From: Chryseobacterium gleum
Lineage (GTDB): Bacteria > Bacteroidota > Bacteroidia > UBA10329
Reading direction: 5' to 3'
DNA length: 64,000 nt
NCBI GenBank assembly: GCA_945903645.1
Contig: CAMDOM010000001.1
Location: 54,491-118,490 of the forward strand
A program made the position numbers and the translations under genes. Position 1 is the first letter of the stretch. Every line of letters starts with the position of its first letter. The notes beneath the pieces are model-generated. The model saw only the letters and a list, made by a program, of their open reading frames with translations, was not told where the DNA came from and ran no database searches. Of this stretch, positions 1-23,832 are shown piece by piece.

Positions 1-799
1 TCGGGCAAGCAAAGTGCCTAGCTACACCTGGAATTTGGAGGCCATGACCATGGATCAGGCTGCACTAGATGGCGTTACCCACATCATCCATTTGGCAGGT
101 GCTGGCATAGCCGACAGCCGCTGGACGTCCAATCGAAAGGAAGAAATCATCACCAGTCGTGTGATGCCTATCAAACTATTGGCCAACACACTAAAAGCGC
201 GAAATCAGCTCCTAGAGGCATTCATTTCCGCTTCGGGTATTGGGTATTATGGTGCCATTACTTCTTCATATATTTATACTGAAGACGATGCTCCTGCCGA
301 AGACTTCTTGGGTAAAACTTGCCAGCTTTGGGAAGATGCTGTGCAATTGTTTGATGGCATTGCCCAACGCGAAGTGCGAATCCGAACAGGTGTGGTGCTT
401 GATGAACAAAGCGGTGCGTTGCCCAAACTTATGTTGCCTGTTAAACTGGGTATGGCTGCAAGTCTCGGTAGCGGCAAACAATGGATGCCTTGGATTCATT
501 ACGAGGATTTGTGCCGCATCTACCTAAAGGCTATTGAAGATTCTGATTTTAGTGGTGCCTATAATGCCACTTCACCGCAACATTCCACTCACAAACAAGT
601 GTTGTCAGAATTATCTTCAGTATTGCGTAAACCTTTTTGGTTACCGAGTGTTCCCTCTTTTGTAATGAAAACTACAATGGGTGATATGGCGGATATAGTA
701 TTGCAAGGAAGTCGTATTTCATCGCAACGCATCATTCAAACAGGTTTTATTTTTCGTTATCCAGCATTGAAGCAGGCACTAAATCAAATTCTTAATTAG
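1..799 (+). CDS. TIGR01777-type NAD(P)-dependent epimerase (SDR family), 5' end cut by window edge
   Basis: Open frame continues upstream of the GTG at 14 (RASK-VPSYTW); motif HIIHLAGAGIADSRWTSNRKEEIITSR is typical of TIGR01777 epimerases. Confidence 0.85.
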   Translation, partial: RASKVPSYTWNLEAMTMDQAALDGVTHIIHLAGAGIADSRWTSNRKEEIITSRVMPIKLLANTLKARNQLLEAFISASGIGYYGAITSSYIYTEDDAPAEDFLGKTCQLWEDAVQLFDGIAQREVRIRTGVVLDEQSGALPKLMLPVKLGMAASLGSGKQWMPWIHYEDLCRIYLKAIEDSDFSGAYNATSPQHSTHKQVLSELSSVLRKPFWLPSVPSFVMKTTMGDMADIVLQGSRISSQRIIQTGFIFRYPALKQALNQILN

Positions 800-839
800 T
801 CCACTTATGTGTTCGTAAATCATAAATCATCTATTAGTA

Positions 840-1301
840 GTGTATTTAGTCCGAAAAGAATTTCATCAAGAGTTACCTATCAGCTTACAAGAGGCGTGGG
901 ATTTTTTGTCTACTCCCAGAAACCTGAATCTCATTACGCCAGACGAAATGAACTTCAATATATTAAGCGGAGGAAATACCCCCATGCACCCTGGCTTGAT
1001 AATTCAATACACCGTTACCCCAGTATTGGGCATCCCGATGGATTGGGTGACCGAGATAACTCATGTGGAACCCTTGCGGTTTTTCGTGGATGAACAACGT
1101 TTTGGTCCTTACAGCTGTTGGCATCATGAGCATTGGTTGGAAGCAACACCTACAGGGGTGCGTATGATAGATATATTGCATTACAGAGTGCCACTTGGCC
1201 CTGTTGGTAAGTTGATAAACGCTCTTTTTATAAGCAATAAAGTAGATGGCATCTTTGAATATCGAACGAAGGTTTTGAACAAGATGTTTCCGAAAGTCTA
1301 A
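840..1301 (+). CDS. SRPBCC (START-like ligand-binding) family protein
   Basis: 153 aa ORF; 'EFHQELPISLQEAWDFLSTPRNLNLITPDEMNFNIL' matches the SRPBCC N-terminus; exact start uncertain. Confidence 0.75.
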   Translation: MYLVRKEFHQELPISLQEAWDFLSTPRNLNLITPDEMNFNILSGGNTPMHPGLIIQYTVTPVLGIPMDWVTEITHVEPLRFFVDEQRFGPYSCWHHEHWLEATPTGVRMIDILHYRVPLGPVGKLINALFISNKVDGIFEYRTKVLNKMFPKV

Positions 1302-1354
1302 ATGGGCTTTTGTAAATCTTCATTTGTAATTCATCTATCGTAATTTCTCAAGTA

Positions 1355-2236
1355 GTGGCCCATTACAGCATAAAAGATTTAGAGAAGCTTTCTAACGTAA
1401 AAGCCCACACTATTAGGATTTGGGAAAAGCGTTACGACCTTATTCAGCCCGAACGCACGGACACCAACATTCGCACTTATTCGGATGAGGAGCTAAAGAA
1501 ATTGCTCAATATTGTTATGCTGAATAACAATGGCTGGAAAATCTCGAAAATTGCCAAGTTAAGGCATGACGAAATGAACAGTGCTTTAAATGACCTAACT
1601 GACACAGAATCTAGCTTTCAGGTAAATATCGACAGCCTTGTGGTGGCTATGGTTGATTTGGATAGAAGGAAATTCGAAAAAATACTTGCAGATTGTACGC
1701 TGCGAATGGGATTCGAGGATACTTGCGTGCAGGTTTTGTATCCATTTCTTCAAAAAGTGGGGCTCATGTGGCTTACTGATTCCATTAATCCGGCCCAGGA
1801 GCATTTTATAAGTAATCTCATTCGCCAAAAGCTATATGTGGCTATTGATGCATTGTATACTCCTAACTTGGAAGGAAAACCTAAAGTGGTAATGTATCTC
1901 CCAGAAGGAGAAATGCACGAAATGGGTTTGTTGTTCTATCGTTATCTCATGGAAAAAAGAGGTTACAACACTATTTATTTAGGTCAAAGTGTTCCGTTTA
2001 ATGATGCGGTCTACACATCAAAAGCGCACCAAGCTGATTTTATAGTCGTTGCTTTTGTAGCTTCAATTACTATGGATAAAATGGAGGCGTATCTCTCTAG
2101 CTTGTCCAGTAAGTTTGAGGGAAAGCAAATTATTGCCACAGGTGGACAAGTTGGTTCCATGACTTCCAAAATAGACCGTGTGTCTTTTTGTGCTAATGTG
2201 CCCCAGTTTGTTGAGCTTATAGAAGAGCTGGAATAA
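1355..2236 (+). CDS. MerR-family regulator with cobalamin (B12)-binding domain, CarH/LitR-like
   Basis: N-terminal MerR HTH (YSIKDLEKLSNVKAHTIRIWEKRYDLIQPERTDTNIRTYSDEEL); C-terminal W-x9-EH motif (W139..E149-H150) and GEMHEMG (His188, lower axial ligand position). Confidence 0.9.
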   Translation: MAHYSIKDLEKLSNVKAHTIRIWEKRYDLIQPERTDTNIRTYSDEELKKLLNIVMLNNNGWKISKIAKLRHDEMNSALNDLTDTESSFQVNIDSLVVAMVDLDRRKFEKILADCTLRMGFEDTCVQVLYPFLQKVGLMWLTDSINPAQEHFISNLIRQKLYVAIDALYTPNLEGKPKVVMYLPEGEMHEMGLLFYRYLMEKRGYNTIYLGQSVPFNDAVYTSKAHQADFIVVAFVASITMDKMEAYLSSLSSKFEGKQIIATGGQVGSMTSKIDRVSFCANVPQFVELIEELE

Positions 2237-2332
2237 TTTTCTCAAACTTCATTGTTCAATCAAATCGAGGCGACTATGTCGTTTTGGTTTGGCTTTTAGC
2301 TCTCCGTGCTCAGATAGATGCATTCGCTTCGC

Positions 2333-2556
2333 CCTAGTTTAAGCCAACGAAACAAAAGTGTTTGACTTTTTGACCTGAATTAGGGTAGTCTTATCCTGGA
2401 GCAATGGCCCATCCAAAGCCTTATTTAATCCAACGAAACAAAAGAGTTGAACCCTTTGACTTGAATTAGGTCATTCCTAGCCTAAAGTCTCGAATCATCC
2501 GAAGTCTCATATTAGCAAACGAAAGTAAAAGTGTTTAATCTTTTGACTGATTTGTG
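2333..2556. repeat. Three imperfect tandem units of 86 bp (starts about 2333, 2419, 2505; third unit partial)
   Basis: Aligned by eye: CCTAGTTTAAGCCAACGAAACAAAAGTGTTTGACTTTTTGACCTGAATTAGG / CCTTATTTAATCCAACGAAACAAAAGAGTTGAACCCTTTGACTTGAATTAGG / TCTCATATTAGCAAACGAAAGTAAAAGTGTTTAATCTTTTGACTGATTTGTG. Confidence 0.75.
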
Positions 2557-2699
2557 ATTTTCTTGTTTATAGATGATTGTTTTTTCGAACGGTTTTTAAT
2601 AAAAAAAGCAAGAGGATTTAGGCTTTTTAAGGAATTTCAAGCTTTCCTGACTTAGAATAATCGCCTCTTGGGAGCATTTTTTGAGTAAATGTGGTTAAA

Positions 2700-2733
2700 A
2701 TTGTTTAACGTTTTAAATAAAATGTAAAACAAT
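2700..2733. promoter_or_regulatory. Operator-like inverted repeat upstream of the ECF sigma gene
   Basis: ATTGTTTAAC-N14-GTAAAACAAT, 9/10 arm match; further TTGTTTAA/TTAAACAA-like motifs at about 2763 and 2849. Confidence 0.45.
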
Positions 2734-2820
2734 TTAATTGATTTTCAATCGTTTAGCTCATTTTGTTTAATAATTGTTAAAAAAGGTGAAACACATATGT
2801 CTAGGGGTGAAAAAACCACA

Positions 2821-2828
2821 TACATTTG
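2821..2828 (+). promoter_or_regulatory. Candidate Bacteroidota -7 element TACATTTG (TAnnTTTG) upstream of the ECF sigma gene
   Basis: Exact match to TAnnTTTG; implies translation from ATG 2847 or 2868 rather than the TTG at 2826. Confidence 0.4.
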
Positions 2829-2846
2829 TTTCATCAAATTTATAAA

Positions 2847-3374
2847 ATGTTAAACAAAATAAACGTCATGTCTACACTTTCTTTTAACGACCGAATAGTA
2901 AAAATGAGTGATGTATTAGAGTATTTCGCTTTGAGCCTAACAAAGGATAAAGAACAAGCGCAAGACCTTCTACAAGAAACATTGTTAAAAGCACTTACTT
3001 ACAAAGATAAGTTTACACCCGATACTAACTTGAAAGCGTGGATGCACACCATAATGCGTAACACGTTCATTAACGATTACCGCAAGTCCATCCGAACGCG
3101 TACCGTGGTTACTACCAAAGACGACATCGAAGTTTTGGATTTTGTGCCGGCTACTACATTTGCGGCACCCGATAGCGCAATTTCTCACAAAGAAATTATG
3201 CAGTTTATTAATAAGTTGGGCGAGCAATATCGCGTTCCATTTATAATGCATTTCAACGGATATAAGTACAAGGAGATAGCCGACCAGTTAAATATTCCTA
3301 TCGGGACTGTGAAAAGCCGTATCTATCTTGCGAAGCAATCGCTAATGGCAAATCTGTCGGGCGTGAGAGATTAA
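2847..3374 (+). CDS. ECF-type RNA polymerase sigma-70 factor
   Basis: Region 2 (DLLQETLLKALTYKDKFTPDTNLKAWMHTIMRNTFINDYRK) and region 4 (YKYKEIADQLNIPIGTVKSRIYLAKQSL); start reassigned from the ORF-track TTG 2826. Confidence 0.9.
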   Translation: MLNKINVMSTLSFNDRIVKMSDVLEYFALSLTKDKEQAQDLLQETLLKALTYKDKFTPDTNLKAWMHTIMRNTFINDYRKSIRTRTVVTTKDDIEVLDFVPATTFAAPDSAISHKEIMQFINKLGEQYRVPFIMHFNGYKYKEIADQLNIPIGTVKSRIYLAKQSLMANLSGVRD

Positions 3375-3383
3375 CACAACCAA

Positions 3384-3938
3384 ATGAAGTACCGTAAAGA
3401 ACACGTGATACTGTTGGACGGGAATGACAACTCCGTTGAAACAATGGAAAAGTTGGAAGCCTACCTTTACGGGTTGCTTCACCGTGCAGTTTTCGTGTTT
3501 ATTGTAAACCAAAAGGGAAAAATGCCGCTTCAAAAACGTGCCAAAAGCAAATATCATGTTACTGGACTTTGGTTCAATGCATGCTGTACCTATCCCTGGT
3601 TAAACGAAAGCACGGTTTATAGTGCCATGCCCAGAACGCGAGAAGAATTGGTAATGACTTGTCACTTTTCTCCAGCACATTCATTAAGCTATAAATCATC
3701 GGTAGAGAGTAATTTGGTGGAGCAAGAGTATCACTTCGGTTTTGTTGGAAAATATTATGTCGTGTTGGTTCCAAACAAAAATGAAATAGAAGAGTGTATT
3801 TTTGTACTGCTTGAGAACATCGAAAAACGGCCAATAGAAAGCCCAGAGGTGTTCACTATAGGGTTTCGAACCGCCTTTGTTAGGGTGAGCGAATACTTTG
3901 CAGGAATGGAATCCCAACCAAAGGGAGGAGTAGAATGA
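3384..3938 (+). CDS. Isopentenyl-diphosphate isomerase (Idi)-like Nudix protein with divergent metal site
   Basis: EHVILLDGNDN..METEAY-like N-term, GLLHRAVFVFIVNQKGKMPLQKRAKSKYHVTGLWFNACCTYP and VEQE align with Idi; two canonical His ligands are Tyr. Confidence 0.75.
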   Translation: MKYRKEHVILLDGNDNSVETMEKLEAYLYGLLHRAVFVFIVNQKGKMPLQKRAKSKYHVTGLWFNACCTYPWLNESTVYSAMPRTREELVMTCHFSPAHSLSYKSSVESNLVEQEYHFGFVGKYYVVLVPNKNEIEECIFVLLENIEKRPIESPEVFTIGFRTAFVRVSEYFAGMESQPKGGVE

Positions 3939-4351
3939 AGGTAACTGTGCATAGACTAGCCCATTTTAACGCGGCTCACCGGCTTCACAACCCTGAATGG
4001 TCCGCAACGCAAAACACTGAGGTGTTCGGCAAATGCAACAATCCCAATCATCACGGTCATAATTATGCTTTAACCGTAAGTGTGAAGGGTGAAATCGACC
4101 CCGAAACCGGATATGTTATTGATATGAAGGTTCTGAAAGAACTCATTCAAAAGCAAGTTGAAGAACCATTCGACCACAAAAATCTAAATCTCGATACCGA
4201 AGAATTTAAACATCTCAACCCAACAGCCGAAAATATAGCCGTGGTAATTTGGAAAAAGCTGCGACCATATTTGAATTCGGAGTTGGAACTAAAAATCACA
4301 TTACATGAAACAGAACGGAACTCCGTTGATTTTGCTGGAGAAGGACTTTGA
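3935..4351 (+). CDS. 6-pyruvoyl-tetrahydropterin synthase / 6-carboxytetrahydropterin synthase family (PTPS), copy 1
   Basis: FNAAHRLHNPEWS, FGKCNNPNHHGHNY, FDHKNLNLD, ETERN motifs. Confidence 0.9.
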   Translation: MKVTVHRLAHFNAAHRLHNPEWSATQNTEVFGKCNNPNHHGHNYALTVSVKGEIDPETGYVIDMKVLKELIQKQVEEPFDHKNLNLDTEEFKHLNPTAENIAVVIWKKLRPYLNSELELKITLHETERNSVDFAGEGL

Positions 4352-5000
4352 GCATATAGAGGAAATTGGTGACAATCACGCGTCTCTCAATTTAGAAACT
4401 CCTCTTCGCGAGGATGCCTTTGATATGAGTGATGCGGAGAAAATAAAAAAAATCGCCCATCACTTTTTTGAAATAATGCACACCATGGGACTCGACCTGA
4501 CGGACGATAGCCTAAGTGGAACCCCACTTCGTGTGGCAAAAATGTATGTTAAGGAAGTTTTTAGTGGCCTCGACCCGAAGAATAAGCCAGCAGTGAAGTT
4601 GTTTGAGAATAAATATGGCTACAAAGAGATGTTAGTAGAGCGCGATATTACAGTGCACAGTTTTTGCGAACACCATTTTGTGCCCATAATTGGAAAAGCG
4701 CACATTGCATATTTGAACAATGGTCAAGTGGTAGGGCTTTCCAAGCTAAATCGCATTGTAGATTATTTTTCGCGCAGACCACAAGTTCAAGAACGACTTA
4801 CTGTTCAAATTGCCAACGAATTGAAGCAATTGCTTCACACCGAAGATATTGCTGTAATACTTGATGCCAAGCATATGTGCGTATCGATTAGAGGTGTGGA
4901 AGATGTTGCAAGTAGCACGCTCACGGCCAGTTATCTCGGTGCATTTAAGCAAAAAGAGACTAGAGAAGAATTTTTGCAATATGTTTACGGTGAAAAATAA
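4305..5000 (+). CDS. folE: GTP cyclohydrolase I
   Basis: DDSLSGTPLRVAKMYVKEVFSG, HSFCEHHFVPIIGKAHIAYLN, GLSKLNRIVDYFSRRPQVQERLT; overlaps the 3' end of the PTPS gene. Confidence 0.95.
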   Translation: MKQNGTPLILLEKDFEHIEEIGDNHASLNLETPLREDAFDMSDAEKIKKIAHHFFEIMHTMGLDLTDDSLSGTPLRVAKMYVKEVFSGLDPKNKPAVKLFENKYGYKEMLVERDITVHSFCEHHFVPIIGKAHIAYLNNGQVVGLSKLNRIVDYFSRRPQVQERLTVQIANELKQLLHTEDIAVILDAKHMCVSIRGVEDVASSTLTASYLGAFKQKETREEFLQYVYGEK

Positions 5001-13724: not shown

Positions 13725-14663
13725 ATGAAAAGGATATTTACTGCTGTTGCCTCTCTCTCTCTGTTGTTTACAGGCTTATCCGCCCAAGCTCAGCAAGACC
13801 CACAGTTTACGCAAAACATGTTCAACCGGTTATACACTAATGCTGGTTATGCCGGCACTAGTGATGGGATTTGTGCAACAGCCCTTCACAGGCAACAGTG
13901 GGTTGGGTTTGAAGGACGTCCAGTTTCTACAATAATTAACGTAGATGGAACTGTTAAGGCACTTCATGGCGGTATTGGATTATCAATTCTTTCCGATCAA
14001 TTGGGAGCTCAATACTCTGGTGGAGTTAAGCTTTCCTATTCATTCCATTTGAAACTAGGAGGAGGTACTTTAGGTATTGGTGTAGAAGGAGGTATTTTGT
14101 TTAATACTTTAGATGGTTCCAAATTGAACCCTATTCAAACTGGTGACCAAAACATTATATCATCTAATCAAGGTGGAGTAGCACCAGATTTGGGTTTTGG
14201 TGTGTATTATACAAATGACAAGTTGTACGCAGGTATTGCTGCTAACCACCTTATTGGCCCAACGTTGGAGTTTGCCGATCCAGTAACTGCAACTGTAAGT
14301 GAACTTGAGGTAGAGCGTCATTACTATGCCATGGCTGGTTATACTTGGGATGTATCTCCAAGTTTTGCACTTAAGCCGTCTGTGTTTGTTAAAACAGACG
14401 CTGCTTCCGCTCAGTTTGATTTGAACGTTAATGTTATGTGGAAAAACATGGTTTGGGCAGGAGCTTCATACAGAATTGATGATGCCGTAGCCATCTTGGC
14501 TGGAGTTCAATTATATGACTTCCGTTTAGGTTATTCGTATGATATCACAACATCTGGATTGAATGTTTACAGCAGTGGTAGCCATGAAGTAATGCTAGGA
14601 TATTGCTACAAACTCAAGACTCCTGTTAACAATCAGCGTTATAGAAACGTTCGATTCCTATAA
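13725..14663 (+). CDS. PorP/SprF family type IX secretion membrane protein
   Basis: Signal peptide then AQQDPQFTQNMFNRLYTNAGYAGTSDGICATALHRQQWVGFEGRP, the PorP/SprF signature; adjacent to gldKLMN. Confidence 0.92.
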   Translation: MKRIFTAVASLSLLFTGLSAQAQQDPQFTQNMFNRLYTNAGYAGTSDGICATALHRQQWVGFEGRPVSTIINVDGTVKALHGGIGLSILSDQLGAQYSGGVKLSYSFHLKLGGGTLGIGVEGGILFNTLDGSKLNPIQTGDQNIISSNQGGVAPDLGFGVYYTNDKLYAGIAANHLIGPTLEFADPVTATVSELEVERHYYAMAGYTWDVSPSFALKPSVFVKTDAASAQFDLNVNVMWKNMVWAGASYRIDDAVAILAGVQLYDFRLGYSYDITTSGLNVYSSGSHEVMLGYCYKLKTPVNNQRYRNVRFL

Positions 14664-22806: not shown

Positions 22807-23832
22807 ATGGGTCTGTTTAACTTCTTCCGACAGGACATCGCCATTGACCTAGGCACGGCCAATACTCTGATTATTTTTAATGATAAAATAGTTGTGGATG
22901 AACCGTCTATTGTGGCCAGAGATATTCAAACTGGTAAAATTGTCGCCATTGGGAAAAAAGCCCAGCAAATGCATGGCAAGACACATAAGAACATTGAAAC
23001 TATTCGTCCACTTAAGGATGGCGTAATTGCCGATTTTGAGGCAGCGGAGCAAATGATAAAGGGATTTATCAAAATGATAAATCCAGGCAAACGCCATTTT
23101 TTTCCGCCTCATATTCGCATGGTTATTTGCATTCCATCTGGTATAACAGAGGTTGAAAAACGCGCGGTACGTGACTCGGCAGAACATGCTGGTGCGCGCG
23201 AACCTTATTTGATTCAAGAACCAATGGCGGCTGCTATTGGAATTGGTATTGATGTGGAAGAGCCTATGGGCAATATGATTATTGACATTGGTGGTGGAAC
23301 AAGTGAAATTGCGGTAATCGCTCTGGGTGGTATTGTTTGTGACCGTTCGATTCGTACTGCTGGTGATGATTTTACTGCTGATATCGAGGATTACATGCGT
23401 AGGCAACACAATATCTTAATTGGTGAGCGGTCTGCCGAGCGTATTAAAATTGAGGTGGGAGCAGCTATTACCGAATTGGATAACCCACCGCCTGATTATG
23501 CCGTTCATGGTCGCGATTTGATGACAGGAATTCCAAAGGAAATCACAGTTTCTTATCAAGAGGTCGCTCACGCTTTGGATAAGTCGATAACCAAAATTGA
23601 AACAGCTATTTTGAATGCGCTAGAGATGACCCCACCCGAACTTTCGGCTGACATTTACCGCACAGGTTTGTATCTCGCAGGAGGTGGTTCTATGCTTCGC
23701 GGTTTGGACAAACGCATAAGCCTAAAAACCAAGTTACCTGTTCATATTGCTGAAGACCCATTGCGTGCAGTGGCGCGCGGTACTGGTATTGCACTTAAAA
23801 ATGTAGACCGCTTCCCATTCTTGATGAAGTAA
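22807..23832 (+). CDS. mreB: Rod shape-determining protein MreB
   Basis: FRQDIAIDLGTANTLIIFNDKIVVDEPSIVA; QEPMAAAIGIGIDVEEPMGNMIIDIGGGTSEIAVI. Confidence 0.97.
   Translation: MGLFNFFRQDIAIDLGTANTLIIFNDKIVVDEPSIVARDIQTGKIVAIGKKAQQMHGKTHKNIETIRPLKDGVIADFEAAEQMIKGFIKMINPGKRHFFPPHIRMVICIPSGITEVEKRAVRDSAEHAGAREPYLIQEPMAAAIGIGIDVEEPMGNMIIDIGGGTSEIAVIALGGIVCDRSIRTAGDDFTADIEDYMRRQHNILIGERSAERIKIEVGAAITELDNPPPDYAVHGRDLMTGIPKEITVSYQEVAHALDKSITKIETAILNALEMTPPELSADIYRTGLYLAGGGSMLRGLDKRISLKTKLPVHIAEDPLRAVARGTGIALKNVDRFPFLMK

Follow-up and report, generated by a model that had tools for sequence, protein, structure and literature searches.

A locus-specific tandem array of predicted stem-loops between a CarH-like regulator gene and its sigma factor gene in a Bacteroidota genome

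CarH operators in Thermus thermophilus and Bacillus megaterium are built from 11-bp direct repeats with the consensus nAnnTnnACAn, and CarH homologues themselves are defined by the signature motifs Wx9EH and ExHx2G (review PMC8156234). Three or four such repeats stand side by side over the promoter. Short, imperfect intergenic palindromes in tandem are a feature of the REP/BIME-type repeats, which are dispersed in many copies, and a variable, covarying closing stem around a conserved core, likewise in tandem, characterizes structured intergenic RNAs such as orphan ncRNA motifs and riboswitch-like elements. The array described here, located in a 64,000-nucleotide stretch of a Bacteroidota draft genome (the window), shares with these systems, respectively, repeated sites adjoining a CarH-like regulator gene, tandem intergenic palindromes, and a covarying stem that closes over a constant core. 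It differs from CarH operators in its 86-bp spacing, its position away from the sigma promoter and the absence of the consensus from units 1 and 2; from REP-type repeats in occupying one locus rather than many; and from tandem structured RNAs in having no Rfam match or homologues and in lying outside a clear 5' leader, its status as an RNA being predicted.

The regulator gene (1355-2236, + strand) encodes a MerR/B12 protein with Pfam MerR_1 and B12-binding domains, and both CarH photoreceptor motifs accompany the MerR domain, as W139-x9-EH and E186xHxxG (E186MHEMG); the NCBIfam CarH model matches this protein below the model cut-off. An ECF-type sigma factor gene follows on the same strand (2868-3374). 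3' of it, between 3384 and 5000, lie an isopentenyl-diphosphate isomerase-like Nudix gene, a PTPS/QueD-like gene and folE, a set that suggests a pigment and pterin operon for photoprotection.

In the gap from the MerR/B12 gene to the sigma gene (2237-2825), three units begin at 2333, 2419 and 2505, exactly where the original prediction had placed them, the first two occupying 2333-2418 and 2419-2504. The array is real: at lag 86 it matches itself with a score of 31, whereas 100 dinucleotide shuffles gave 10.5 on average and 14 at most. When 84 intergenic gaps of 150 bp or more were compared, from 455 kb of the source genome (the window plus a 390-kb sample of genome stretches), no better tandem came to light. 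Another degenerate intergenic tandem repeat occurs in the same genome at L149:5515-5620 (period 64, score 21). Tandem Repeats Finder does not list the array, presumably owing to the strong degeneracy of its copies; units 1 and 2 agree at 62/86 positions and the two pairs that involve unit 3 at 44/86 and 41/86. Unit 3 aligns to the others over its first 53 nt only and has a 1-nt insertion after position 20. Owing to this insertion, the 86-bp spacing holds for the unit starts and not for the cores, which are separated by 86 and then 87 positions. No ORF of at least 60 aa overlaps 2246-2825, in agreement with what had been claimed, and with a period that is no multiple of 3 a coding repeat is ruled out.

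Each unit is composed of a 52-53-nt element and a poorly conserved 34-nt spacer. Read on the + strand, the elements lie at 2333-2384, 2419-2470 and 2505-2557 (the last containing the insertion) and the spacers of units 1 and 2 at 2385-2418 and 2471-2504, with 19/34 identities between these two. In unit 1 the core is enclosed by outer arms at 2333-2343 and 2374-2384. The 31-nt core is constant, with 26/31, 26/31 and 25/31 identities across the three unit pairs (81-84%), and AACGAAA is its most conserved stretch. The arms of units 1 and 2 agree at 17/21 positions, and this drops to 8/21 and 9/21 (38-43%) when either is compared with unit 3. Spacer identity ranges over 12-19/34, and the element is more identical than the spacer in every unit pair (p = 0.007, 0.023 and 0.006).

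The dyad AAAAG...CTTTT that had been proposed for each unit is complete in units 1 and 3 (6/6 pairs, G-U counted) and reaches only 5/6 in unit 2; as an inner stem it is paired in 94% of the cells of the unit alignment. What had been overlooked is a longer outer inverted repeat, of 11 + 11 positions bracketing the core, which is found in all three units. This outer stem pairs at 10/11 positions in unit 1 and at 9/11 in both unit 2, whose own fold is the weakest, and unit 3, where changes relative to unit 1 have occurred on both sides. Over the whole alignment 28/33 cells are paired and four pairs have changed on both sides, a covarying helix of the kind expected of a structured RNA element, and sliding the partner arm by 1-3 columns lowers the pairing to 21-60%. 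When columns were shuffled and the best 11-position helix was taken from anywhere, 55/8000 shuffles reached the observed pairing and 1/8000 reached pairing and covariation together, values that derive from three sequences of a single locus and from a helix length and score weights chosen after inspection. Although 13 substitutions separate its arms from those of unit 1, unit 3 keeps 9/11 pairs; neutral random substitution of the unit 1 arms retained at least nine pairs in 0.4% of trials. The conserved 5' bulge, CMAACGAAA, may in addition pair with the loop (11/12 cells), with one more both-side change, the fifth overall. Folds of the single units are unexceptional against background (z -0.3 to -1.5), and the full gap folds with z -1.55. 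The array is locus-specific and carries a conserved-hairpin signal above the controls used.

With G-U pairs counted as they would occur on the + strand, 28 cells are paired, a value reached by 0/300 shuffles, whereas on the - strand the best helix has 26 cells and is matched by 32/300 (0.107); these statistics lean towards an RNA of the + strand. Watson-Crick pairs by themselves are also significant (24 cells, 0.007), and a DNA dyad in place of an RNA hairpin is possible.

The most likely reading, which we put forward tentatively, is that the array is a tandem triplicated stem-loop predicted to act as RNA; it ranks above neutral decay, and neutral decay above operator units of an auxiliary or relic kind. 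On this view a 52-53-nt stem-loop would have been triplicated in tandem, locally and in this lineage only, in the gap that separates the CarH-like gene from the sigma gene. Each element would fold into an outer 11-position stem, a 5' bulge perhaps paired with the loop, and the inner AAAAG/CTTTT stem, and the working form would be a + strand RNA, either a small RNA or the read-through 3'UTR of the regulator gene, in which a binding partner would meet the same core three times. The repeated small RNA entertained in the original prediction finds support in the covariation of the outer stem and in the constant core; the transcript itself we infer, as we do its strand, the pseudoknot and any function of the array. 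Counting against the RNA reading is a terminator-like hairpin 3' of the MerR/B12 gene (2260-2292, + strand, a consensus match only), which stands between the regulator gene and the array. The sequence just upstream of the array showed no promoter of the Bacteroidota type, and an Rfam scan of positions 1-5000 of the window returned nothing within it up to E = 5; no tRNA-like or known RNA was identified there. Downstream of the array, at 2605-2685, an AAGAGG...CCTCTT hairpin followed by GCATTTTTT forms a possible terminator, with an energy no better than that of shuffles.

The array occurs once in the 3.2-Mb draft genome: the second-best BLAST match is at E 0.6, and a search with the covariance model brings up nothing further under E 4. 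With only these three units in the genome, a dispersed genome-wide repeat, an outcome that the original prediction had named as fatal to it, is ruled out. None of eight congeners was found to have the array, and in all six with a readable spacer the regulator-sigma gene order is kept and the array is absent. Among 28 local alignments to the congeners' spacers and to the window's own downstream gap, two gave p <= 0.05, as expected by chance. Two class draws (149 and 395 genomes) and a phylum draw (396), which partly overlap, yielded only isolated matches near chance level, and the weak covariance-model matches L057-L060 in other genomes were rejected as single, near the chance count, in some cases inside ORFs, and without the gene context. 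Phage and plasmid collections gave no convincing match; the core pattern appears in 36 viral contigs, once in each and never in tandem.

Such a distribution would also be left by a neutrally decaying tandem duplication of intergenic DNA without present function, an explanation that we regard as rather unlikely. Covariation would then be due to chance, or to mutation by template switching within a quasi-palindrome, from one arm to the other. The array's absence from every congener that has the gene pair, low identity between copies and the want of a homologue in the Bacteroidota genomes sampled all fit such decay, but the differences are unevenly divided between the 52-nt element and the spacer, conservation of the core is equal for each unit pair, and only 1/8000 column shuffles reached the covariation.

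The third explanation, that the units serve as auxiliary DNA-binding sites for the CarH-like regulator or are a decayed array derived from an operator, is more doubtful still, and has to be judged against the spacers of other CarH-sigma pairs. An iterated matrix finds the half-site TTTTGTTTAAY in 63/65 other Bacteroidota CarH-sigma spacers, in most cases no more than about 120 bp from the start of the sigma gene, and the 8-mer TTAAACAA/TTGTTTAA is present in 60/65. In the window, the three best half-sites, at 2696-2711 (+), 2758-2773 (+) and 2847-2862 (-), score 12.6, 15.6 and 16.1 bits and lie some 140-305 bp 3' of the array; the TnnACA part of the 11-bp CarH consensus is contained in the downstream TTAAACAA. 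Given this conservation, the cluster at 2696-2862 is a candidate operator to which the CarH-like protein would bind. The -7 element of Bacteroidota promoters has the consensus TAnnTTTG; a promoter-like copy, TACATTTG (2821-2828, + strand), stands ahead of the sigma gene between the half-sites, and the array contains none. Two further strong matches in the window, at 14092-14107 (12.5 bits) and 22808-22823 (10.6 bits), are possible regulon members.

In register, units 1, 2 and 3 score only 4.7, -2.9 and 9.5 bits (a degraded match, none and a fair one), which makes a role as the main operator unlikely for the array; the MerR operator array first proposed is weakened further by the strong sites at 2696-2862 and by the congeners that have the same gene pair without the array. 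An operator-derived origin, in which each core formerly held AAAA-n-TGTTTAAC-n-TTTT, is possible because the majority core AAAAGTGTTTAACCTTTTGAC weakly resembles the conserved half-site, although a near-invariant base is broken in units 1 and 2. The score of unit 3 has P about 0.045 per shuffled segment, the consensus unit aligns to the downstream gap at the 2697 site (p = 0.035) and R2 likewise picks 2696-2716, weakly, but the alignment p-values lose significance after multiple tests, and the operator motif lacks AACGAAA, the stretch of the core that is best conserved.

A limited literature search recognised nothing on the TTTTGTTTAAY motif or on a CarH-like system in Bacteroidota. Returning to the stem-loop RNA, its fullest form, a new lineage-restricted small RNA of three tandem pseudoknotted stem-loops that takes part in the response to light, such as by titrating a protein or binding a cofactor, is improbable as it stands. 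Transcription of the array, if it occurs, would yield a structured RNA in tandem copies, placed in a light-response locus and confined to a single lineage within an uncultured group of Bacteroidota. Independently of this, TTTTGTTTAAY provides a testable operator motif for a pair of CarH-like regulator and sigma factor that is widespread in Bacteroidota.
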